Assembly (NCBI GenBank): GCA_951802195.1
Contig: OX637625.1
Span: 1,116,001 to 1,180,000, forward strand
Reading direction: 5' to 3'
From: Tausonia pullulans
Taxonomy: Eukaryota > Basidiomycota > Tremellomycetes > Cystofilobasidiales > Mrakiaceae
DNA length: 64,000 nucleotides
Of this stretch, positions 3,001-37,870 are shown in pieces. Within the stretch, counting starts at the first letter, position 1. Each line of letters starts with the position of its first letter. Made by a program: the position numbers and the translations under genes. Under the pieces are notes generated by a model. The model saw only the letters and a program-made list of their open reading frames with translations. It searched no databases and was not told the DNA's origin.

Positions 3001-6000
3001 TAAGGTTTCTGCGAGCGGGGATAGGACAGCGAGAGTAGGCCGTGGCGGACGTAGAGGAGTCCCTCGGTGAGATCTGTGGAACGACCAGACTCCGACAGGT
3101 GGCGAGCATGGGAGCGTCCCGTGAAGAAGCGGTCCTCAAAGACGGACATGCCCCCGACCTGAGCGTCGGCATGGAGGGCGACGGTGCCGAGGAGAGGGCC
3201 GAGACGGTCGAGGAACTCTTGCATACCAGGTTTGGAGGCAAACGAGTCGGGAAGTGTCGCGCCAGAAGATTCGTAATCGGTCGCGTAGTCGAACGAATTG
3301 AAGTCCGGGTTAGATGGGAAACTTGGAATTCGGACGTCCTTCTCCATTGACCGCAGCGTGAGTAGGATTGCTCGGACGGCGACGGCCATCCTTTCTGGCG
3401 TGACGAGAGCATCGCTGGAGACCGACGACCCGACGACGGGACCTCCGCCACCACCGAGCCGGTTCTCTGCGAGGAGCTGAAGCACAAAATCACGGCCGTA
3501 GTCGAACTGGCGAACGAGGAGATAGTGAATAAAGTTGACGAAAGGGTCAAGCGGGAGCTCGGTAGGAACGATGAGCCGCTGGCGGAGAGGGAAGCATGTC
3601 CGAAGCACCGAGTCGAGCGTCTTGGTGAGCGTCGCGTTGCTCTCGCCTGTGCATCGATTGAGATAGACCCAGAGAAGCCGCATAATACTGTTGGCGATGA
3701 TGGGTCGCGCCGAACGCTCCTTGACTTTGAGGACGGCCGAGTGCAGGACCGTCTGCCACTGATCCATGAAAAGCTCCCGCGGGGAGACGCAGAGTGCCGA
3801 AACGACAAGCGGGAAGCTGACGCCCCAGTACTTGTCCTTGGTCGCGAGCTTGGTCGCCTGGGCGAGAATAATTGACACAGCTTTTGCCCAATGCGGGTGA
3901 TTGACTTCTGCGGTTGCCGTCTGCAGAGGTTGATCTCAGCAAGAGCTCATAGGAAGGACTGCGCAAAAAGACAGGCCACTCACATTGGCAATCGGGTGGA
4001 TGATGTATCGCAAGATCTCAGCGTACGCTACCTTGAGGATGGTGCCGTGAGTCTGAGAGAAATCTGTCGCAAGCTCGACAAGGAATTCGGCGCCCATGTC
4101 AAAGTCCTCCGGCGGATAGACCTTGGGAAGGAGGCAGATTCGTCAGTATGCACTCATAGACAGAGAAATATGAAGACTCTCACTTTGAGCTTGAACCCCC
4201 CCATCGCACGGATGATCATCTCAAGACGACATTCTGCCTCGCGCTCCGACTTAGCGCTCGCACCCGTGCCTGTTCCAACCCCGGCATCGATGCCCGCCCG
4301 CAGCTCACGGAGAAACCGGTCCGAGAATGTGAGGAACCGTAGGTTGACGAGACTGCCGACAAGCTCGACAAGCAGGTTTCGGTTCGCCAGTCGGCTCGGT
4401 GATCGAGCCAGAGCGTCGCTGAAGAGGGCAGGCGAAAGGAAGTGAGTCAGCCAGAGAAGCGGCGATAAATTCGATCGCGAACTCACAGGTCCCGCTCCTT
4501 GATAACCCATCGCCAGCAAAGATCCTCGATTTTAATTCCGAGCGCGTCCCCGAGGACCTCTTTGCTCGGCATTTGACGTACGATCGAAAGGATGGCTCGC
4601 AGAAGAATGTACGTCGCAGCGTGCTGGAGAAACGATCGGTCAGCGCTCCAAAGCCTCGACTCTCGCTTGCCGATAAAGAGAGCGAGGTTCACCTGGATCC
4701 GCTCGTTCAGCGCAGCAGCTGCCTCCGAGACGCTCGTGATAGATGACGCAGCCCTAAGAAGGAAACGCATCAGAAACACAAGATAGTTTCAAGGACTGGC
4801 AATTGCCCGGCTCCTCACATGTGACTCCGGACATCGCCCCGACCAAGCTCGTCGGCTATTGTCGAGTTCCGCCAGCTGATCAGACTATCAAGGACAGCCT
4901 TGGCCTCCGCCGGCTCCTTGCCTCCCGACGCCGACTTGCCGCCTCCAGACGTAGCGACGAGGCCCAAGCTATCGAGCACGCCATCAAGCTTGGGGTCCGC
5001 CCCTGGGCCGAGAAGTGAAGGCAAGGGCGGCACGGGCGCCGAGAGGGGGAAGACGTTCGCGGAGACGAGAGTCTTGAGGTGCTGGGTCGTTATCTCGTTG
5101 AAGAGCCTCAGGAGGATATTGAGCGCGAACTGGGGTGGAGTCGTCGGCGCTGGCAGGATGAGTGCCGAGCCGGCCTGGTTGAAGTCGGCGAGCGAAGAGA
5201 AGGACGACTGAGGTGGGCGACCCCCTCCAGCGCCTCCGACGCGACGCGTCGTCGAGGGTAATGGTGGCGGCGAGGTCGTCGTTGACCGAGCCCAGCCTCC
5301 AACCACAGAGGTCGCGTGCGAGAACTGGGAGGGGCGAGAGTAGTGTCCCGGTTGGGAGATCGAGTGGCTAGCCGACCAGAGCGCACTTGTAGTTCCTCCT
5401 CCGCCAGATGAGGCCGTCGAAGGTCGCCCACCCTTTTTGCGCAATCCACCAGCGCCGCCCGTGCTCGTGAACGACGGCGGCAAATTATGGCTGTTGAGCG
5501 TGTGAGACGACGACCCGTTCCGGGAGAACGGATTCCGGAGCGCAGGGTAGTTGTGCGAGTCCGGCAAGGGTGGGACCGCCGACGCAGAGACCGTGCGGTC
5601 GAGGGCGTGCGTAGCGCTGGCAGCGCTCTTAGAGAAGGCCGACTTGAGGCTCACGAAGCTACTCTTCTTGCTGACCTCTTTGAGGGTAGGAGGAGGAGCG
5701 AAACCGCCTCCGCCGCTCGTGGATCCGCCAGTTACACGCGAGGAAGAATGGCCGCCGGCTATCGACGACGACGAGCCTACGCCGCCGGAAGTACTCCGCT
5801 GGGTCGAGAAGCCACCGCCGGCGCCTGCGCCGACAGACGACGTGCTCCTCGACTGAGGGAATGAGAAACTACTATCCCCAGCACTGCCGTTGGACGTTGC
5901 GATCGAGTCCTTGCGATGAGGCTGATTGTGGTGGGAGTTGCTACTTGTCACGCCTCCCCCGCCTCCGGGGCCGTACGCGTCCGAGGACGCCATGGAGGAA

Positions 6001-30004: not shown

Positions 30005-30089
30005 CACCGCTTAGCTCATCTGGAAGAGCGTGAGACTGTAACGACCGAAACCGCGCTCTCAAGGCACGCGATTCGATCCCACGAGGTGA
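30005..30089 (+). tRNA. tRNA-Tyr(GTA)-like gene with intron, poor 3' half
   Basis: The D arm (AGCTCATCTGGAAGAGC) and anticodon stem TGAGA/TCTCA are good. The loop CTGTAA carries GTA followed by about 14 nt that look like the usual tRNA-Tyr intron. However, the T arm (around ATTCGATCC) pairs only about 3 of 5 positions in any register, and the acceptor CACCGCT against CGAGGTG has two mismatches. Either this is a decaying tRNA-Tyr copy or I have mis-set the 3' end. Confidence 0.45.
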
Positions 30090-30327: not shown

Positions 30328-32660
30328 TTTTTTTTTTTTGTATTTAAGTCATGAGTTATACGTAGAGAACGAGGTAACCCTATGAGAGATATCGAGTAGT
30401 AGCCAGATAGAGGGAGAGCGAAAGTAAAGAACAGGTAGAAGGAAAGCAATATATGGGTGTGGACATAGGCCCATTAAAGAGGTAAGATATTAAGATGACC
30501 AGCTACATCAAGCAGTGGCTATGGACCAGCCATACTTCCCCACCCCAGACCTGCTTGTCACCCAGGATCGATGTCGGCGCCGACCGCAGTTCCATCCATC
30601 TGGTCCTTGCGAGCCCTCCACCTCGTACTCGACTGCCAGTGTTTCTGCTGGATCGTAGACGCGATCTTGCGGATCTCCTCGTCCGTGACAGGGTCGAGGG
30701 CTGCGATCTTGCTGTATCTCCGCCTCCGGACGAATCGCCATGTCCGGGCAACAAAGATGCAGTGGAAGAGGAAGACCCCCCTCGGCGGCGACGGTGTCGG
30801 GCAGACAAGCGTCTGGAGGGAGGGAGGATGGGAGGGGAGTGAAGGCGAGGCACGTGCAGCAGCCGCAGCAGACCAGATAGCGCCCACGACGGGACACGGC
30901 TCGTCGAAGAGGTGGAAGAAGGACTCAACGGGGGCCGTCAGGCACAGCGCACATCGCTTGGACCTGTTGTGCGGTGTAGCGGTGCCGTCGGCGAGGAATG
31001 CCGCAGCAGTATGCTTTCCTGGGTGGAGACTGTACAGCGAGAAGCGGTGGGCCAAGTCGACGTCTTCGGGCGACGCTCGGGACACGGCCTTGAGCAAGCA
31101 CCACTGCCGCTTCCAATCGATCTTGGTAAGCGCCGGAAAGTGGTCTTGCCACCCCTTTGGGATGATGAGGCCGCGGTTGGCTAGAGTACGACTGTGTGCG
31201 CCGTGGGGCTCACGAGGAACGTTCAGCCGGCCCAGGTTTGTGTGGCCAGGGTGGAGAGCTATCCGCAACTGGCTATCTGTACCGAACGTAGACATCCAGT
31301 GGACAGCGTTCCTCCAGCGGTCTTGATTCCAGTAACTCATGTCAAAGCTGATTTCTTCGAACCATGCCCGGAGGTAAGCCTGCCATCGTGCAGGGAGAGC
31401 TCCTTGGAGCTTTGTGATGGCATTCCACCAGACGGCTGGGAAGAACCATTGACCTTCCACTGGGGAAAGGAATACGCCTAGCCAGCTGAAATTGGCGGGC
31501 CGAGGTCCTCTGATGAACTCTCCATCCCTGAAGATGGTGCGAGTCATCTTTCTATAAGCCCTTGGGTCGAGGCTCATGGTATGGATGATCCGCTTGCGAA
31601 TACGGATCGATGCGGGAAGCTCCGGTTGGAAGAGCACATCGCCAGCCCACTGGGCGCGCGCCTTGATGAGCCGGAATCGGAGTGGCGTGAAGCCAAAGCC
31701 GCCGAGGTCTCGAGGGGTTTCCAGATGCTCCCTGCTGACGTCGTGGTGTTTCGATCGGTAGAGGGACTTGTAGGCCGTTGCCTCGAGGTCTTCCAGGATA
31801 TCGTCTGGGCACGGCAGGAAGCGGTCCAGTTAGATGATCTTCGAGTAGATGTACTGGTTGATGACGTTGCATCGCGCAAGGAGAGGGAGATCGTGCAGCG
31901 GGATGCGAGCAAGACGAGCCTTCAGCTTGCCGATGATCTCTCGCCAGTGAGCAGGCACGTTGACCGTGCGACCGCATGGAACGCCGAGGAAGTCGAATGA
32001 AAGCGTTTGGACGCGCCATTCGTGGTACCTCGTAGGCGCATCCGTCCGGCATGACCCTAGCGGATAGAGGAGTGATTTCTGGTAGTTCAGCTTGCTTGCT
32101 GCGGCTTTCTCGTACTCTCGGAGGCAGACCGTCGCCTCATCGACCTCCGACCAAGTCCGACACCGGATACTTAGATCGTCTGCAAAGAGAAGGACCTTCC
32201 GCTCGTGTAGGGGGGGCGGATTGGCTGGTGGGAGGCGATGACGGAGCATACAAGCCAGCGGCTCCAGGAGGAGGGCGAAGATCGTCGGTGCCGCGGGATC
32301 GCCCTGTCGGACACCGGACCGGATATGGATGGCTTGACCCATCCATCCGTTGATCATGAGCCGAGCAGTCTGAGAGGTCATCGTTGAGGTGATCCACGCG
32401 GCGGCGCGCGGACCGAACCCCATGTGGCGGAGGCAGGGGCCAACAAAGTCGTGCGACACTCTGTCGTATGCCTTCTCAAAGTCGACTTGGGCGAGGACGC
32501 CAGGCAAGAGGTCTTCGTCGTCTATGGCGAGCTGGAGAGAGGAGATGTTGCGACCCGAGTCGCGGCCAGGGAGGAAGCCTGTCTGGTCCGGAGGGAGACA
32601 CATGAACAGGGCGTGAAGACTGATGGGTGGGTGGATGTTGGTGGCAACGTAAGGCTTCTT
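30328..32660 (-). mobile_element. 5'-truncated non-LTR retrotransposon (LINE), copy A
   Basis: A LINE fragment on the minus strand. From its 5' side it has the reverse transcriptase core, the ORF2 C-terminal region, a 3' UTR, and a poly(A) tail (T12 on the plus strand at 30328-30339). Coding similarity (…PPISLHALF… then DQTGFLPGRD) runs to within a few tens of bases of tRNA-Glu at 32671, so the truncated 5' end faces the 5' end of that tRNA gene. No endonuclease domain or ORF1 is present. The last ~170 nt (30328-30497) recur at 33196-33360, 36516-36686 and 36691-36790. I could not find a clear target-site duplication. The exact 5' boundary is uncertain by roughly 50 nt. Confidence 0.88.
30558..32603 (-). 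pseudogene. LINE ORF2 fragment: reverse transcriptase and C-terminal zinc finger
   Basis: Visible RT blocks: DQTGFLPGRD, AQVDFEKAYDRVSHDF (block with the first catalytic Asp), SGVRQGDPAAPTIFALLLEP (fingers/palm QGDP), VLLFADDLSI (the FADD catalytic pair), SKLNYQKS and FLGVPCG. The C-terminal half contains CALCLTAPVESFFHLFDEPC, a CCHC-type finger common at the end of LINE ORF2 proteins. One in-frame TAA at 31830-31832 splits an otherwise continuous frame. Upstream parts of ORF2 (endonuclease, first RT block) are absent because of the 5' truncation, so this copy cannot move on its own. Only one stop in about 2 kb suggests a fairly young insertion. Confidence 0.88.
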
Positions 32661-32670
32661 CTGAGCTTTA

Positions 32671-32742
32671 TCCTTTGTTGTCTAACGGCTATGATATGAC
32701 GCTCTCACCGTCAAGGCCCGGGTTCGACTCCCGGCAAGGGAA
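32671..32742 (+). tRNA. tRNA-Glu (anticodon CTC)
   Basis: Starts TCCTTTGTTGTCTAACGG and ends CAAGGGAA. Acceptor TCCTTTG/CAAGGGA pairs over 7 bp. Anticodon stem TGACG/CGTCA around loop CTCTCAC gives CTC. The T arm CCCGGGTTCGACTCCCGG is canonical. 72 nt, no intron. LINE copy A ends just upstream of it on the opposite strand. Confidence 0.95.
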
Positions 32743-33195
32743 TATCACTTTTGCTTTGCACATCCTTGAGATGTTCCGACGTCTGCGGGAGGGGAACCCT
32801 CTGTTGTGCGGGGAAGGAGACGGTCGCGGACACGAGCAACACAACACACAAAGCTTCCCTGTCTTGACCGCCGCGCGTCGTCCTTGCACTTTGTGTTCCT
32901 GTGGTGGTCCCATCGGCGTCTCCTGCAGAGGCCTGTTCCGTCCCAGCGTCTCTAGAAAGAGCCAGGCAGGAGTCACGGACCGAGGGGGGTCGTCCCTGGA
33001 CCATGCATCCGCTCTCATCTCAGTACCAGCTGGAGGACTGGGATGCTGCTGAGCCAGGCTGAAGACGATGCTTTCTTGTGGTTAAGGTGTGAGTCGAAAG
33101 CAGAAAACGGCATGACCCTGTGAGAGCCCGCGAGAGGGGGGACGGGGAGAGATGGAGGACGGGGGGGAGGGTGAATGTTGTTGTTGAAGAAGGAG

Positions 33196-34670
33196 TTTTT
33201 TCTGTGTTGAGTCATAAGTCATACGTAGAGGAGGAGGTACCCCTATGAGAGATAGAGAGTCGTAGCTAGATAGAGGGAGAGCGAGAATGAAAGAAGAGGT
33301 GGAAGGAAAGCAAAGACGGGTATGGATATAGGCCCATTAGAAAAGGTGATATGTCCATGGGAAAGAGCGTTGAGTGGAGATGGAAAAATGTAGAAGGCGA
33401 GAGTGGGCGGGGTAAGGGATGTCTAAAAGTACACATCAAGGTGATCAGCCATATCAAGAAACTCCTCCTCTATTTCGTCGTCATCGTCGGAGTTCTCCAG
33501 CAGGCCTTCCTGCAAAAGCTTGTTTGGGGTATTGTAGCACGCGTGGATCCGAGGTTTCACGCCTCTCACGTTCAGCGGCAGGGACTGTAGTTGGGTTAGG
33601 ATGTCTTGGGCATTTCCTTGAGGGTCGATCTGGAGGAGCATTCTGCCATTTCGATTTTTGAAAGGACGGATCAGGCTGGACAGCTGTTCGTTGCACTCGG
33701 AGATTGCGTTGGAGATCTCGATGGGAGTGGTATCTCGAGGGACGAAAATGGCGAGACGGTTCACGCGGTCGAAACCCAAGGCTGAGAAGATCGAGGTAAT
33801 ATCCTGCGGAGGTTGTTGAGCGGCTCCGAAGGCGAATGCAAGCCGGGGCTGGATGTCAGACGAGTCACGTTGCCTCGCAGCTGAAGTTGTAGGATGAGCC
33901 TGTTTGGCGGCATTCGCTTGTGAGCTGCCAACGGCGTTCGGCTGGGGGTTTGCGGCGGAGGTCGCCGGCGCGGGCGACGCGGCGCTGGGGACGAAGGGAG
34001 GTTGTTGATAGAGTGTCTCGCCTGTGGAACGAGGCGGTGTGAGATGCGCCCCTTCAGACGTGAGGGATGGAGCGGCATTGAGGTCGCTAATGGCTGAGCT
34101 CGACAGAGTGACACGGCCAGTCGAGGGGGTTGCAGGGGTACGGCGGAGAGGGGAGGGAGAAGAGAGGGGGGCCGTGGGGCTGATGTGGTTGTGGGGCGTG
34201 GTAGGGTCGGGGGTAGGAGTAGTAGGGTGGGTGTTATCGGTAGCTTCGGTAGGCTCGGGGGCCTCGGAAGCCTCGGTAGCCTCGGTGGCTCCTGTAGGCT
34301 TGATAGGGTTGCTGGGATGGGTAGGGGTGCCAGGGTCACTAGGACTGGTCGGACGAGAAGGAGAGCCGAGGGTGGGTTTGTTGACGGGCGTGTTGGGACG
34401 TTCGTCGATGCGAGAGGGCGTGTTGGTCGCCGTGTCTTGGACGGCGATGGCCGCCTCGTCCGATCCGCTCTTTTGCTGTGCTGGAGAGGGAGGGTCTAGG
34501 GGATCCTCGGGAGCCCTGAGAGCTCCATGGGGTCGCTTGAGGGCTGAGTCACTAGGCATATGGTAGGGTGATCTGGGTTGCCTGGTGGTGGTTGTGGTGG
34601 TTGTGGTGGGTTGTGGTGCGGGGGAGGAGGAGGAAGACCGAACGAGCTGCTGGCGGGCTCGCCCTGCCAT
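33196..34670 (-). mobile_element. ORF1-only LINE derivative (copy B)
   Basis: Minus-strand unit made of one long ORF (34670-33423) followed directly by the LINE 3' tail (33196-33360, more diverged than the other tails, with a poly(A) reduced to T6 on the plus strand). The tail shares the TAAGTCAT, ACGTAGAG, ACCCCTATGAGAGATAG, TAGATAGAGGGAGAGCGA and AGGCCCATTAGAAAAGGT blocks with copy A. No reverse transcriptase lies between the ORF and the tail. The ORF start codon is 13 nt from the 5' end of tRNA-Leu (34684) on the other strand. The simplest reading is an internally deleted, non-autonomous element like the half-L1 (HAL1) elements of mammals. A separate family sharing the tail is the alternative. 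Confidence 0.7.
33423..34670 (-). CDS. Putative LINE ORF1 protein
   Basis: 415 residues, uninterrupted. The N-terminal two thirds are very rich in Pro/Ser/Thr/Ala with short tandem peptides (TEATEASEAPEPTEAT). The last ~130 residues are ordered: SIFSALGFDRVNRLAIFVP, ISNAISECNEQLSSLIRPF and GRMLLQIDPQGNAQDILTQL, which may form an RRM-like alpha/beta fold, followed by an acidic tail (DDDDEIEEEF). It is called ORF1 because it is followed by the same 3' UTR as the RT-bearing copy. A nucleic-acid-binding chaperone role is inferred from LINE ORF1 proteins in general. The lack of any break suggests the copy is recent or still maintained. Confidence 0.6.
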   Translation of the reverse strand: MAGRARQQLVRSSSSSPAPQPTTTTTTTTRQPRSPYHMPSDSALKRPHGALRAPEDPLDPPSPAQQKSGSDEAAIAVQDTATNTPSRIDERPNTPVNKPTLGSPSRPTSPSDPGTPTHPSNPIKPTGATEATEASEAPEPTEATDNTHPTTPTPDPTTPHNHISPTAPLSSPSPLRRTPATPSTGRVTLSSSAISDLNAAPSLTSEGAHLTPPRSTGETLYQQPPFVPSAASPAPATSAANPQPNAVGSSQANAAKQAHPTTSAARQRDSSDIQPRLAFAFGAAQQPPQDITSIFSALGFDRVNRLAIFVPRDTTPIEISNAISECNEQLSSLIRPFKNRNGRMLLQIDPQGNAQDILTQLQSLPLNVRGVKPRIHACYNTPNKLLQEGLLENSDDDDEIEEEFLDMADHLDVYF

Positions 34671-34683
34671 CCATACAGCACAC

Positions 34684-34777
34684 GGTCGGATGGCCGAGCG
34701 GTCTAAGGCGCTAGCTTAAGGTTCTCATATGAACTCGCTAGTCTTCACGGGCATGGGTTCGAATCCCATTCCGATCA
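34684..34777 (+). tRNA. tRNA-Leu (anticodon AAG) with intron
   Basis: Starts GGTCGGATGGCCGAGCGG and ends TTCCGATCA. Acceptor GGTCGGA/TCCGATC pairs. D stem GCC/GGC. Anticodon stem CTAGC/GCTAG is perfect, with loop TTAAGG then an intron of about 14 nt and C. This register gives AAG; shifting by one would give TAA but removes base 26. A variable arm of Leu type precedes the T arm ATGGGTTCGAATCCCAT. Confidence 0.9.
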
Positions 34778-35066
34778 TGTCTCTTTTGCTCCGTCCTGCG
34801 GTTCTCCCGGCGTGGCCAGCGTCAGCTGGAGGACCGCTCGATGGCGTCGGGGTGACCGCTCAATGGCGTCGGGGTGTCAGATAACGCAGGACGAACGCAG
34901 GAAGGGTCCGTCCAGTCCACCACGGCTGAAGGGGCTGCGAGAGCCGATGCTAGAGCTTTTGTTTTGTTTTCAAAAACAGGAGAGCGACAGCATCGTCAGG
35001 TTTGGGGTGGCCTGGGCGACGAGCGTCCATGGAACGAGGGATGCTTCGGCTGCTTCGTCTGAGCGT

Positions 35067-35170
35067 GCCCTGCTAGCTCAATCGGTAGAGCGTCAGACTC
35101 TTACAGCAGGTGTTCAACAGTCGCTTCGCAGGTGATCTGAAGGTTGGGGGTTCGACCCCCCCGTGGGGCT
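35067..35170 (+). tRNA. tRNA-Lys (anticodon CTT) with intron
   Basis: Starts GCCCTGCTAGCTCAATCGG. Acceptor GCCCTGC/GTGGGGC pairs with G-U allowances. Anticodon stem TCAGA/TCTGA encloses CTCTTA, an intron of about 31 nt, then A. The anticodon is CTT. T arm GGGGGTTCGACCCCCC. The intron begins after position 37, as usual for eukaryotic tRNAs. Confidence 0.92.
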
Positions 35171-35192
35171 AATGTTTCCTTTTGCCGGGATC

Positions 35193-35246
35193 CTCGATGC
35201 TGTGAGGGATCTCGATGCTGTGAGGGATCTCGATGCTGTGAGGGAC
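35193..35246. repeat. 18-bp tandem repeat, three copies
   Basis: Unit CTCGATGCTGTGAGGGAT at 35193, 35211 and 35229 (last base C in the third copy), just downstream of tRNA-Lys. Confidence 0.95.
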
Positions 35247-35420
35247 CTCGTGGCTGGTCGGGACATGCAGTGTGATCTGCAGGCTGTCTGGATGGCTCTG
35301 GATGGCTCCGGTCCGGGCAGGCGCTCGGTCGCTAGGGGAGGCGTGGATGAACGGCGGGGCGGAGAAGGGTTGTGCCGGTCTGGGTGCGCGTACGAGCCAG
35401 ACTGTCACTAAAAGCACTCG

Positions 35421-35490
35421 TCGGGATCGTATAATGGTTAGTACAAGGTGTTAACACCGCCTAGACCCGGGTTCAATTCCCGGTCCTGAT
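35421..35490 (+). tRNA. tRNA-Val (anticodon AAC)
   Basis: Starts TCGGGATCGTATAATGG and ends GTCCTGAT. Acceptor TCGGGAT/GTCCTGA pairs with two G-U. Anticodon stem AGGTG/CGCCT around loop TTAACAC gives AAC. T arm CCGGGTTCAATTCCCGG. It is one base short between acceptor and D stem (70 nt). A T7 terminator lies at 35494-35500. Confidence 0.87.
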
Positions 35491-35500
35491 ATGTTTTTTT

Positions 35501-35638
35501 GGTGTGTGTTTGGTGTGTGTTTGGTGTGTGTTTGGTGTGTGTTTGGTGTGTGTTTGGTGTGTGTTTGGTGTGTGTTTGGTGTGTGTTTGGTGTGTGTTTG
35601 GTGTGTGTTTGGTGTGTTTCTGGTGTGTTTCTGGTGTG
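35501..35638. repeat. GT-rich 11-bp tandem array
   Basis: About twelve copies of GGTGTGTGTTT, with the last two units altered to GGTGTGTTTCT. It begins directly at the T7 terminator of tRNA-Val. All G/T on the plus strand. The antisense reading gives a His-Thr-Lys/Pro-Asn repeat frame with no real protein character. Confidence 0.95.
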
Positions 35639-36130
35639 ACCTCACACTTCAAGCCTGAAGTCCGCCTCACCTTTTGCTGGACGTGGGCAGATGTGATCGT
35701 CCGTGTCCGTCATCGGCGCGCCCTCGTCCCGCCCGCTTCTCTGCACCTCATCAAGAATGTGTCCGTCTGACCGTGGCCCAGCACCCACGTTCCCTGCGCA
35801 GGAAGCAGTCTGCTTGACCCGGGACCCGCACGGGTGCCCGCAGACCGAAGCGAGGATCCAGTCTACTGCGAGCTGGCTAGTCCCAAGCTGGTCGATCCAC
35901 TGCAAGCTGGTCGATCGATCAGCCGACACGAGCTCTGCTCGATGTCCTGTCGGCACCCCAAGCATGGGTCAGTCGCGCCCTGCTTCCCAGCCGACTGCAC
36001 GCCCGCTGCTGGCTGGGCCAAGCTCGCACTGTCCGTGGAGATGAGGCGTTGCAGGCCTGCCAAGGGCAGAGCAGAAGACAGCGGGGCAAAAGAAGGATCG
36101 TGTTCCTCAACGAAGAGGTGACACTGTCTT

Positions 36131-36202
36131 GGAGACTATAAGAGTTGAACTCATGACCTTACACATGCTAAGCGTACGCTCTACCAACTGAGCTAAATCC
36201 CC
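36131..36202 (-). tRNA. tRNA-Ala (anticodon AGC)
   Basis: Minus strand GGGGATTTAGCTCAGTTGG...TAGTCTCC. Anticodon stem TACGC/GTGTA with loop TTAGCAT gives AGC (read as IGC). No intron. A near-twin of the Ala(CGC) gene at 29510-29581. Confidence 0.94.
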
Positions 36203-36515
36203 AAGTGGTTTTTATGTGCAGTCTGCGCCGTGGGAGGAGCTTGTTCATCGTTCGTCAGGGGCGCGCCGTTGCGCCGCGCGAGCAGCCGGCGGATGCCTCT
36301 CTCTCGCCGTCAGCGCCCTCGTCCGAGGTATCGGAGAGTCAGAGACAACAAGCGATCTCGGGTCGGAGACGGTAAGAGGTCTCGAGTCGGAGACAACACG
36401 CGATGTTTACTCGGAGTCGAAGTGTACTGTCAGGGGACTGTCCCTTGGACGGGACGAAAACAAGCGCGAAATACAAACGTGTGGCGAGAAGGAGAGGCTG
36501 GGATGGGTTGGGCGA

Positions 36516-36690
36516 TTTTTTTTTTGTATTTAAGTCATGAGTTATACGTAGAGAACGAGGTAACCCTATGAGAGATGATGATTCGTAGCTAGATAGAAGG
36601 AAAGCGAAAATGAAAGTAGGGATGGAAGGAAAACAAAAGATGGGTTATGGACATAGGCCCATTAGAAAAGGTAAGATATTAAGATGGGCG
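36516..36690 (-). repeat. LINE 3'-tail copy C
   Basis: A heavily 5'-truncated copy holding only the ~165-nt 3' UTR and a poly(A) tail (T10 on plus at 36516-36525). It matches copy A closely from GTATTTAAGTCATGAG through ATAGGCCCATTA to GTAAGATATTAAGATG, then abuts the poly(A) of copy D at 36691. Confidence 0.9.
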
Positions 36691-36790
36691 TTTTTTTTTT
36701 TTTTTTTGTATTTAAGTCATGAGTTATACGTGGAGAACGAGGTAACCCTATGAGAGATAGCGAGTTGTAGCTAGATAGAGGGAGAGCGGA
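36691..36790 (-). repeat. LINE 3'-tail copy D
   Basis: T17 on the plus strand at 36691-36707, then about 85 nt matching the LINE 3' UTR up to AGAGGGAGAGCG. Beyond that the match stops and a GC-rich minisatellite begins. It may be a very short insertion or the 3' end of an element whose body is the minisatellite. Confidence 0.85.
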
Positions 36791-36840
36791 CATGACCGAG
36801 CGCGAGAACGTCGGGCGAGGCGCCGTGGGAAGAGGGTTGG

Positions 36841-37715
36841 CCGAAACACTGGGGATGGTTGGCCGGACGGCGTGATGGGCGCCGTGAGAGGGGGGGGGGG
36901 TTGGTCGAACCACCGGGGATGGTTGGCCGGACGGCGTGATGGGCGCCGTGAGAGGGGGGGTCGAACCACCGGGATGGTGGTTGGCCGGAAGAGGGTTGGT
37001 CGAACCACTGGGGATGGTTGGCCGGACGGCGTGATGGGCACCGTGGGAGGGGGGTTGGTCGAACCACCGGGGATGGTGGTTGGCCGGAAGGGGGTTGGTC
37101 GAACCACCGGGATGGTGGTTGGCCGGAAGAGGGTTGGTCGAACCACTGGGGATGGTTGGCCGGACGGCGTGATGGGCACCGTGGGAGGGGGGTTGGTCGA
37201 ACCACCGGGGATGGTTGGCCGGACGGCGTGATGGGCGCCGTGAGAGGGGGGGTCGAACCACCGGGATGGTGGTTGGCCGGAAGAGGGTTGGTCGAACCAC
37301 TGGGGATGGTTGGCCGGACGGCGTGATGGGCACCGTGGGAGGGGGGTTGGTCGAACCACCGGGGATGGTTGGCCGGACGGCGTGATGGGCGCCGTGAGAG
37401 GGGGGGTCGAACCACCGGGATGGTGGTTGGCCGGAAGAGGGTTGGTCGAACCACTGGGGATGGTTGGCCGGACGGCGTGATGGGCACCGTGGGAGGGGGG
37501 TTGGTCGAACCACCGGGGATGGTGGTTGGCCGGAAGGGGGTTGGTCGAACCACCGGGATGGTGGTTGGCCGGAAGAGGGTTGGTCGAACCACTGGGGATG
37601 GTTGGCCGGACGGCGTGATGGGCACCGTGGGAGGGGGGTTGGTCGAACCACCGGGGATGGTTGGCCGGACGGCGTGATGGGCGCCGTGAGAGGGGGGGTC
37701 GAACCACCGGGATGG
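36841..37715. repeat. Minisatellite with ~446-bp higher-order period
   Basis: Two related units alternate: one of about 59 bp (GATGGTTGGCCGGACGGCGT… to …GGTCGAACCACCGGG) and one of about 36-43 bp (ATGGTGGTTGGCCGGAAG…). The GGACGGCGTGATGGGC core starts at 36865, 36929, 37024, 37162, 37221, 37316, 37375, 37470, 37608 and 37667. Spacings 138-59-95-59-95 repeat, so a unit near 446 bp is present about twice. All three minus-strand frames stay open for over 300 codons because unit lengths are mostly not multiples of three. The array ends about 70 nt upstream of tRNA-Met. Confidence 0.93.
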
Positions 37716-37786
37716 TGGGCGACAGGCGGATGGAGGTCGCCTGGAGGTCACCTGTTGGTGTCTGTCTGCCTGTTGGACGACGGCAT

Positions 37787-37870
37787 GCCTCGATAGTTTA
37801 GTTGGTTATGACTCAAGTCTCATATGACCTATGCGATCTTGCGACCCCAGTTCGAATCTGGGTCGAGGCA
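37787..37870 (+). tRNA. tRNA-Met (elongator, anticodon CAT) with intron
   Basis: Starts GCCTCGATAGTTTAG and ends TCGAGGCA. Acceptor GCCTCGA/TCGAGGC pairs perfectly with discriminator A. Anticodon stem CAAGT/TCTTG (one T-T mismatch) around CTCATA, with an intron of about 11 nt after position 37. T arm CCCAGTTCGAATCTGGG. The intron and acceptor fit an elongator rather than an initiator. Confidence 0.85.

Follow-up and report, generated by a model that had tools for sequence, protein, structure and literature searches.

A LINE family in Tausonia pullulans that appears to insert upstream of tRNA genes, head to head

A tRNA cluster in the genome of the basidiomycete Tausonia pullulans raises the question of whether a long interspersed nuclear element (LINE), a retrotransposon without long terminal repeats (non-LTR), can be aimed at tRNA genes in a fungus. 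The cluster lies at 29.5-37.9 kb of a 64,000-nucleotide stretch (hereafter the window; C6:1116001-1180000 of a 23,855,473-base assembly of 21 contigs) and includes eight tRNA genes called by Rfam, among which lie four minus-strand pieces of one LINE family, designated A, B, C and D. Contig C21 (18.8 kb) of the assembly carries COX3; among its 120 best relatives, the three with a named organism are fungal (Microconidiobolus, Malassezia and Entomortierella, at 52-55% identity, the best of all having 58%), which supports a fungal host. A previous sequence-only reading of the window had proposed that this family inserts just upstream of tRNA genes, head to head. Our analyses make it very probable that a multi-copy family of L1-like LINEs uses target-primed reverse transcription (TPRT) to insert ~60-115 nucleotides (nt) upstream of tRNA genes, such that the 5' ends of element and tRNA face each other, with the position presumably set by the RNA polymerase III (Pol III) machinery. 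Features of the cluster are listed below in window coordinates; L numbers denote sampled loci elsewhere in the assembly, and ORF stands for open reading frame.

30328..32589, minus strand: LINE copy A, 5'-truncated (2260 nt aligned with the L032 element at 95% identity)
32671..32742, plus strand: tRNA-Glu(CTC), target of copy A (ARAGORN, Rfam)
33196..34593, minus strand: copy B, ORF1-only and internally deleted, with the shared 3' tail (blast to the L032 and L040 elements; 5' end compared with L040 and L047)
34684..34777, plus strand: tRNA-Leu(TAA), target of copy B (ARAGORN, Rfam)
36509..36515, no strand assigned: TGGGCGA, left target-site copy, before copy C
36516..36686, minus strand: copy C, a cut-down tail of ~171 nt (alignment; copy C without D is present in L024)
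36685..36690, no strand assigned: TGGGCG, target-site copy that separates C from D and overlaps the boundary of C with its first bases
36691..37717, minus strand: copy D, non-autonomous, ~97-nt LINE tail plus minisatellite body, beside copy C (other D copies occur elsewhere)
37716..37722, no strand assigned: TGGGCGA, right target-site copy, after D and ~65 nt upstream of tRNA-Met
37787..37870, plus strand: tRNA-Met(CAT), target of C and D (ARAGORN, Rfam)

Alignment bore out that the minus-strand pieces belong to a single non-LTR family and that their 5' ends face the plus-strand genes for tRNA-Glu, tRNA-Leu and tRNA-Met, giving an occupancy of 3/8 in the window; the Ala, Ile, Lys, Val and second Ala genes are without an element. 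Copy A has its poly(A) end (a T run on the plus strand) at 30328 and its 5' junction at 32589, and its ORF2 frame is interrupted by a stop at 31830-31832. That its 5' end faces tRNA-Glu had been noticed before and stands, but the separation, previously put at tens of bases, is 82 nt. Copy B consists of the N-terminal part of ORF1 joined to the LINE tail. Its homology to the long copy in L040 stops ~91 nt from tRNA-Leu, GGTGGTT-type repeats continue to about -81, and its exact 5' end is uncertain by ~10 nt. The ORF1 start formerly placed 13 nt from tRNA-Leu is an ATG that only opens a mechanical ORF, as the copies in L040 and L047 begin at AACCACCACCAGG, 35 nt before ATGCCTAGTG. The earlier distances for A and B were discarded after this alignment to long copies. 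Copy D ends ~69 nt from tRNA-Met, and the minisatellite that had been seen with C and D upstream of this gene proved to be the body of copy D, a family which recurs at other tRNA genes.

The LINE tail pattern, allowing up to 3 mismatches, had 496 matches in the assembly, and the reversed pattern had none. Distance and orientation were surveyed in samples of the assembly. Thirty short loci of 3.2 kb each (L001-L030) were picked by tail similarity, and twenty stretches (L031-L050; 191,173 bases with 34 tails and 18 tRNA genes, a permuted one left out) were picked by tail only, in the order of a listing of the first 100 of the 496 tails. A complementary tRNA-first sample comprised twenty 200-nt flanks, corresponding to the first 29 entries of the Rfam tRNA list minus 9 already present in tail-chosen loci; as this list is ordered by score, strong tRNAs come first. 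Junction positions were taken from blast edges and by eye, with a possible error of up to ~15 nt.

In the twenty tail-first stretches, a tRNA 5' end lay no more than 400 nt from 13 of the 34 tails, in every case head to head (on the LINE 5' side and antisense). The other three arrangements were absent at this distance, and a rotated control gave 1.0, 1.0, 0.1 and 0.1 for the four arrangements. An element end at -66 to -158 was present at 17/18 tRNA genes in these stretches, an occupancy that is biased because tails picked the stretches. Elements there form 18 chains: 15 extend to a tRNA gene, which is permuted in one case, 2 leave the stretch, and the remaining one, in L045, lacks a recognisable tRNA. 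In the tRNA-first sample, antisense element ends were detected in 11 of 20 flanks; blast placed 10 of them at -78 to -149, and the one in L089, recognised by eye, lies near -73. The nine entries excluded from this sample were all occupied (9/9). The nine empty flanks comprised L077 and eight near-identical copies of one flank (L081-L088). In a comparison by coordinates only, 24 listed tRNAs on C1-C3 were checked for exact tails no more than 500 nt away; these lay upstream with the same strand label in 6 cases, upstream with the opposite label in 1 and downstream in 0 (random mean ~0.1 each); within 2500 nt the four counts were 9, 6, 3 and 1, versus ~0.5 each by chance. The short loci together with the window contained 27 tRNA genes, 17 occupied, 9 empty and 1 without flank sequence.

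Across 45 occupied junctions the median position was -86, with none closer than -63. The check by distance and orientation of tail copies, run on these samples, thus gave a fixed orientation and a narrow distance wherever the element end and the tRNA were both in view, and the family is found head to head upstream of tRNA genes more often than chance allows. The original observation is partly confirmed, with its distances corrected, and is stronger than it was first put; the reading drawn from it is supported, guidance by the Pol III complex being its inferred part. Insertion might instead be random, with selection sparing only the harmless copies in tRNA flanks. Such a process would likewise cluster old, diverged copies at tRNA genes, but it would neither fix orientation nor confine 43/45 ends to a 55-nt band (-60 to -115). 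Moreover, copies with a tail at 99-100% identity to copy A likewise terminate next to tRNA genes (L003 at -64, L005 at -67 and L011 at -106), and we regard this explanation as very improbable.

Insertion by TPRT is indicated by poly(A) ends, 5' truncation and target-site duplications (TSDs). For the latter, the 28 nearest insertions whose T run was clear were scored, after four junctions had been dropped and L040:5906 and L041:4511 left out. TSDs of at least 5 nt were present in 15/28 and of at least 6 nt in 11/28, compared with maxima of 9 and 7 in 20000 shuffled pairings; by eye, the longer TSDs have no evident common motif. A paralogous tRNA-Met series was also found, in which L018 lacks C and D, L024 has C, and the window has C and D, and every step duplicates TGGGCG(A). 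This series and the TSDs show repeated insertion at one site, where each new copy entered beside the tRNA and displaced the older copy outward. Such displacement can produce the element stacks seen in L037 and L047. L018 bears another, older copy at -98. A tRNA-LINE chimera formed by template jumping was considered as well, and is ruled out by the 60-110 nt of unlike flank between tRNA and LINE.

One or a few tRNA-LINE units multiplied through segmental duplication could give a similar picture, and parts of the data have this character: L081-L088 are eight near-identical empty flanks, and three other loci (L062, L066 and L069) have one common junction. However, most junctions have a truncation point, distance, flank, TSD and tRNA isotype of their own, and such distinct junctions exclude duplication as a full account. 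It covers only part of the copy number, and as the explanation of the whole pattern it is the least credible of those considered here. The L081-L088 flanks, all on C6 and with equal Rfam scores, are themselves an instance of segmental duplication of tRNA regions.

What kind of element is involved was seen from its long copies, L032:2480-7515 and L040:5981 to L041:3799. In the L040/L041 copy both ORFs are free of internal stops; ORF1 opens at ATGCCTAGTG and encodes 624 aa, ORF2 encodes 1224 aa, and ORF1 is preceded by a 5' untranslated region (UTR) of 35 nt that starts with AACCACCACCAGG. L047 shows an identical 5' start, and the LINE 5' end carries AACCACCACC. In ORF2 of L032 (1225 aa), RVT_1 (1.4e-24) and Exo_endo_phos (7e-4, a weak match below the curated cut-off) were the sole domains found, with no RNase H family among them, and Pfam gave no match for the partial ORF1 of L032 or the ORF of copy B. 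Inspection by eye added zinc knuckles in ORF1 and, close to the C-terminal end of ORF2, a Cys/His motif. Against PDB, ORF2 matched human L1 ORF2p with an E value of 1e-44 and R2 with about 1e-15. Judged from these predicted proteins, the element is an L1-like two-ORF LINE, whose reverse transcriptase (RT) is nearer to the L1 than to the R2 type in a treeless PDB comparison of these two only. It ends in poly(A) and has two ORFs, in place of the LTRs and integrase of Ty3-type elements.

A test of what the element follows is offered by 21 circularly permuted tRNA-Gln(CUG) genes (L038:5324-5406, L007:842-942 and L051-L069; C1, C11, C12, C14, C16, C17 and C18). Two half-gene patterns each matched 21 places, pairing one to one on the same strand, each 3' half preceding its 5' half. 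The spacers are 5-47 nt long, and TTTT occurs no more than 27 nt past the 5' half in 21/21. All seven acceptor-stem pairs (G-T allowed) are kept in each of three variants, GGTGGCA/TGCTACC (1 gene), GGTTGCA/TGCGACC (5) and GGCGGTG/CACTGCC (15). ARAGORN called Gln(ctg) in 21/21 sequences joined in mature order and in 0 in genomic order. A 5'-half pattern for tRNA-Gln(TTG) had no match, and a scan of the sampled DNA for other permuted isotypes returned Gln only, with 0 in a shuffled control. Up to 2014, 34 permuted tRNA genes, from unicellular algae and archaea, are counted in the available text of one survey (PMC3978253), and no fungal case was found in the accessible parts of the literature searched on permuted tRNA in fungi and basidiomycetes.

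These genes are a natural experiment that sets A-box-based against start-site-based aiming. The LINE family lies upstream of 5/21 permuted genes, the other 16 having no element within 200 nt. Counted from the permuted 3' half, antisense ends lie 97 nt upstream in L062, L066 and L069 (copies of one), 109 nt in L038 and 120 nt in L068, so that the junction is ~161-190 nt from the A box, as against ~93 nt in ordinary genes. In three independent events, the LINE thus appears to take its position from the start of the tRNA unit and not from the A box. These genes also bear on the idea that the endonuclease reads a motif, or the shape, of the DNA flanking tRNA genes, without any Pol III protein. LINEs with an endonuclease of the apurinic/apyrimidinic (APE) type have mild sequence preferences, which would fit, as would the broad spread of distances, mostly -63 to -111; on the other hand, the TSDs have no evident common motif, and the targets include varied tRNA isotypes as well as permuted tRNA genes with unlike flanks. 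We consider motif or shape recognition unlikely.

Several observations weigh against aimed insertion upstream of tRNA genes. In the tail-first stretches, arrangements other than head to head appear at longer range: 2 and 2 (4 in all) beside 17 head to head within 1000 nt, and 3 and 2 (5 in all) beside 19 within 2500 nt, where rotation gave 5.8, 6.0, 0.8 and 0.8. On C1-C3, an opposite-label tail lies within 2500 nt upstream of 6/24 tRNAs. Occupancy is incomplete, since the 45 tRNA genes of the tail-chosen loci and the window comprise 34 occupied, 10 empty and 1 unjudged, and with the tail-chosen L038 excluded only 4/20 permuted genes are occupied, 3 of these being copies of one flank. A TSD of 5 nt is missing at 13/28 junctions, window copies A and B included, and a few of the scored TSD matches may contain element bases. 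No exact tail was seen in the 2.5 kb around either of the two U6 genes that pass the cut-off, and the chain in L045 has no recognisable Pol III gene, a search there for any Rfam family having given nothing useful. Junctions without a TSD may reflect small target deletions or misjudged ends, and L045 perhaps contains an unrecognised Pol III gene as a candidate target. In L045, a D element (4976-5330) is followed downstream by an ATATAT stretch and a TTTTCTTTTC run. The search for other Pol III targets also returned one 5S gene. Of the 30 short loci, 16 lacked any tRNA recognised by Rfam or ARAGORN in their 3.2 kb, the element 5' ends there being untraced.

If insertion is aimed, what could guide it? 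TSDs without an evident motif, at a roughly constant distance, make a protein bound at the tRNA gene the simplest guide. The ORF1 or ORF2 protein might contact the Pol III initiation complex once assembled (TFIIIB), and this complex would set the position of the nick. In TRE5-A of Dictyostelium discoideum, ORF1 contacts TFIIIB subunits and a B-box mutation abolishes targeting, according to the available text of PMC5911963; by analogy, the fungal LINE may be aimed through the same contact. With somewhat less weight, the 35-nt 5' UTR would suit an element that borrows divergent Pol II transcription from open tRNA-gene chromatin as its promoter, and such a promoter would account for the fixed orientation. 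A wider scenario, in which Pol III targeting evolved independently of the dictyostelids, the position of the complex is read even at permuted tRNA genes (B box before A box), divergent transcription of tRNA genes is the only promoter and non-autonomous passengers share the route, is offered tentatively, as its chances may fall a little short of even.

Among known systems, the closest is TRE5-A. As described in the consulted parts of PMC5391098 and PMC5911963, it is likewise a non-LTR element with two ORFs and an ORF2 with APE, RT and zinc-finger-like domains, is found upstream of tRNA genes, always in the orientation that brings the two 5' ends face to face, can form tandems, and has an ORF1-bearing non-autonomous derivative, which served as a blueprint for assays. 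The LINE described here shares with TRE5 the facing 5' ends and an ORF1 and ORF2 with APE and RT domains, but its median distance of 86 nt is outside the 40-54 nt of TRE5-A, its ORFs overlap at ATG where TRE5-A needs a -1 frameshift, and it differs further in its fungal host, the 35-nt 5' UTR, the lack of noticed A/B/C modules and its minisatellite-bearing passengers. By layout and description it appears to work like TRE5, a likeness that claims no membership. The dictyostelid elements NLTR-A and NLTR-B are also non-LTR and located upstream of tRNA genes; unlike the LINE, they have an RNase H domain and lie 2-6 or 39-64 nt upstream (PMC5006619, parts consulted). Ty1, Ty3, Tj1 and Ylt1 are fungal retroelements upstream of tRNA genes (PMC5911963), but have LTRs and integrase, with the Ty3 type inserting at the start site and Ty1 in a ~1 kb window.

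A table of tRNA-adjacent retroelements in this 2018 review gives non-LTR cases from dictyostelids only, while the accompanying text, as far as available, expects Pol III targeting among fungal retrotransposons, LINEs included (PMC5911963). No fungal non-LTR element at tRNA genes was named in the portions seen of the literature searched, PMC7175516 included, most subscription papers lying outside the search. With a fungal case, the tRNA-targeting habit of LINEs either has a further origin outside the dictyostelids or is spread more widely. The hundreds of tails provide a natural series for study, and an aimed LINE is of interest for safe-site gene delivery.

The family also includes passengers and very short copies. 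D elements consist of the last ~97 nt of the LINE plus the minisatellite body and begin with AACCACCA as the LINE does; further D copies are present in L033, L038, L047, L048, L049 and others. In mammals, HAL1 is an ORF1-only derivative and SVA a passenger bearing a variable number of tandem repeats, and both use LINE machinery. Copy B resembles HAL1 and copy D resembles SVA by description, with no sequence relation claimed; unlike SVA, D retains the LINE's own ~97-nt 3' tail. In the D minisatellite (window 36691-37717 and other D copies), read in the sense direction, GGTTCGACCCC matches the Pol III B-box consensus, and this B-box-like sequence may be a candidate for TFIIIC binding.

Solo tails of 61 nt with a common 5' end occur at L032, L040 and L012, ending at one base as if reverse transcription halts at one point of the 3' tail RNA. 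The shortest copies are 26 nt (L031) and 18 nt (L005), the latter flanked by an 8-nt match, ACGAACTT, as if TPRT had started and then ceased almost immediately. On C2:364009-400578, exact tails recur six times with a constant 5369-nt step, in units of ~6.1-6.3 kb, a spacing (from coordinates only) as in a tandem array of LINE-bearing units. Finally, window positions 30005-30089 contain a degenerate tRNA-like match with GTA at the anticodon place; its Rfam score of 20.2 bits falls short of the gathering threshold of 29.

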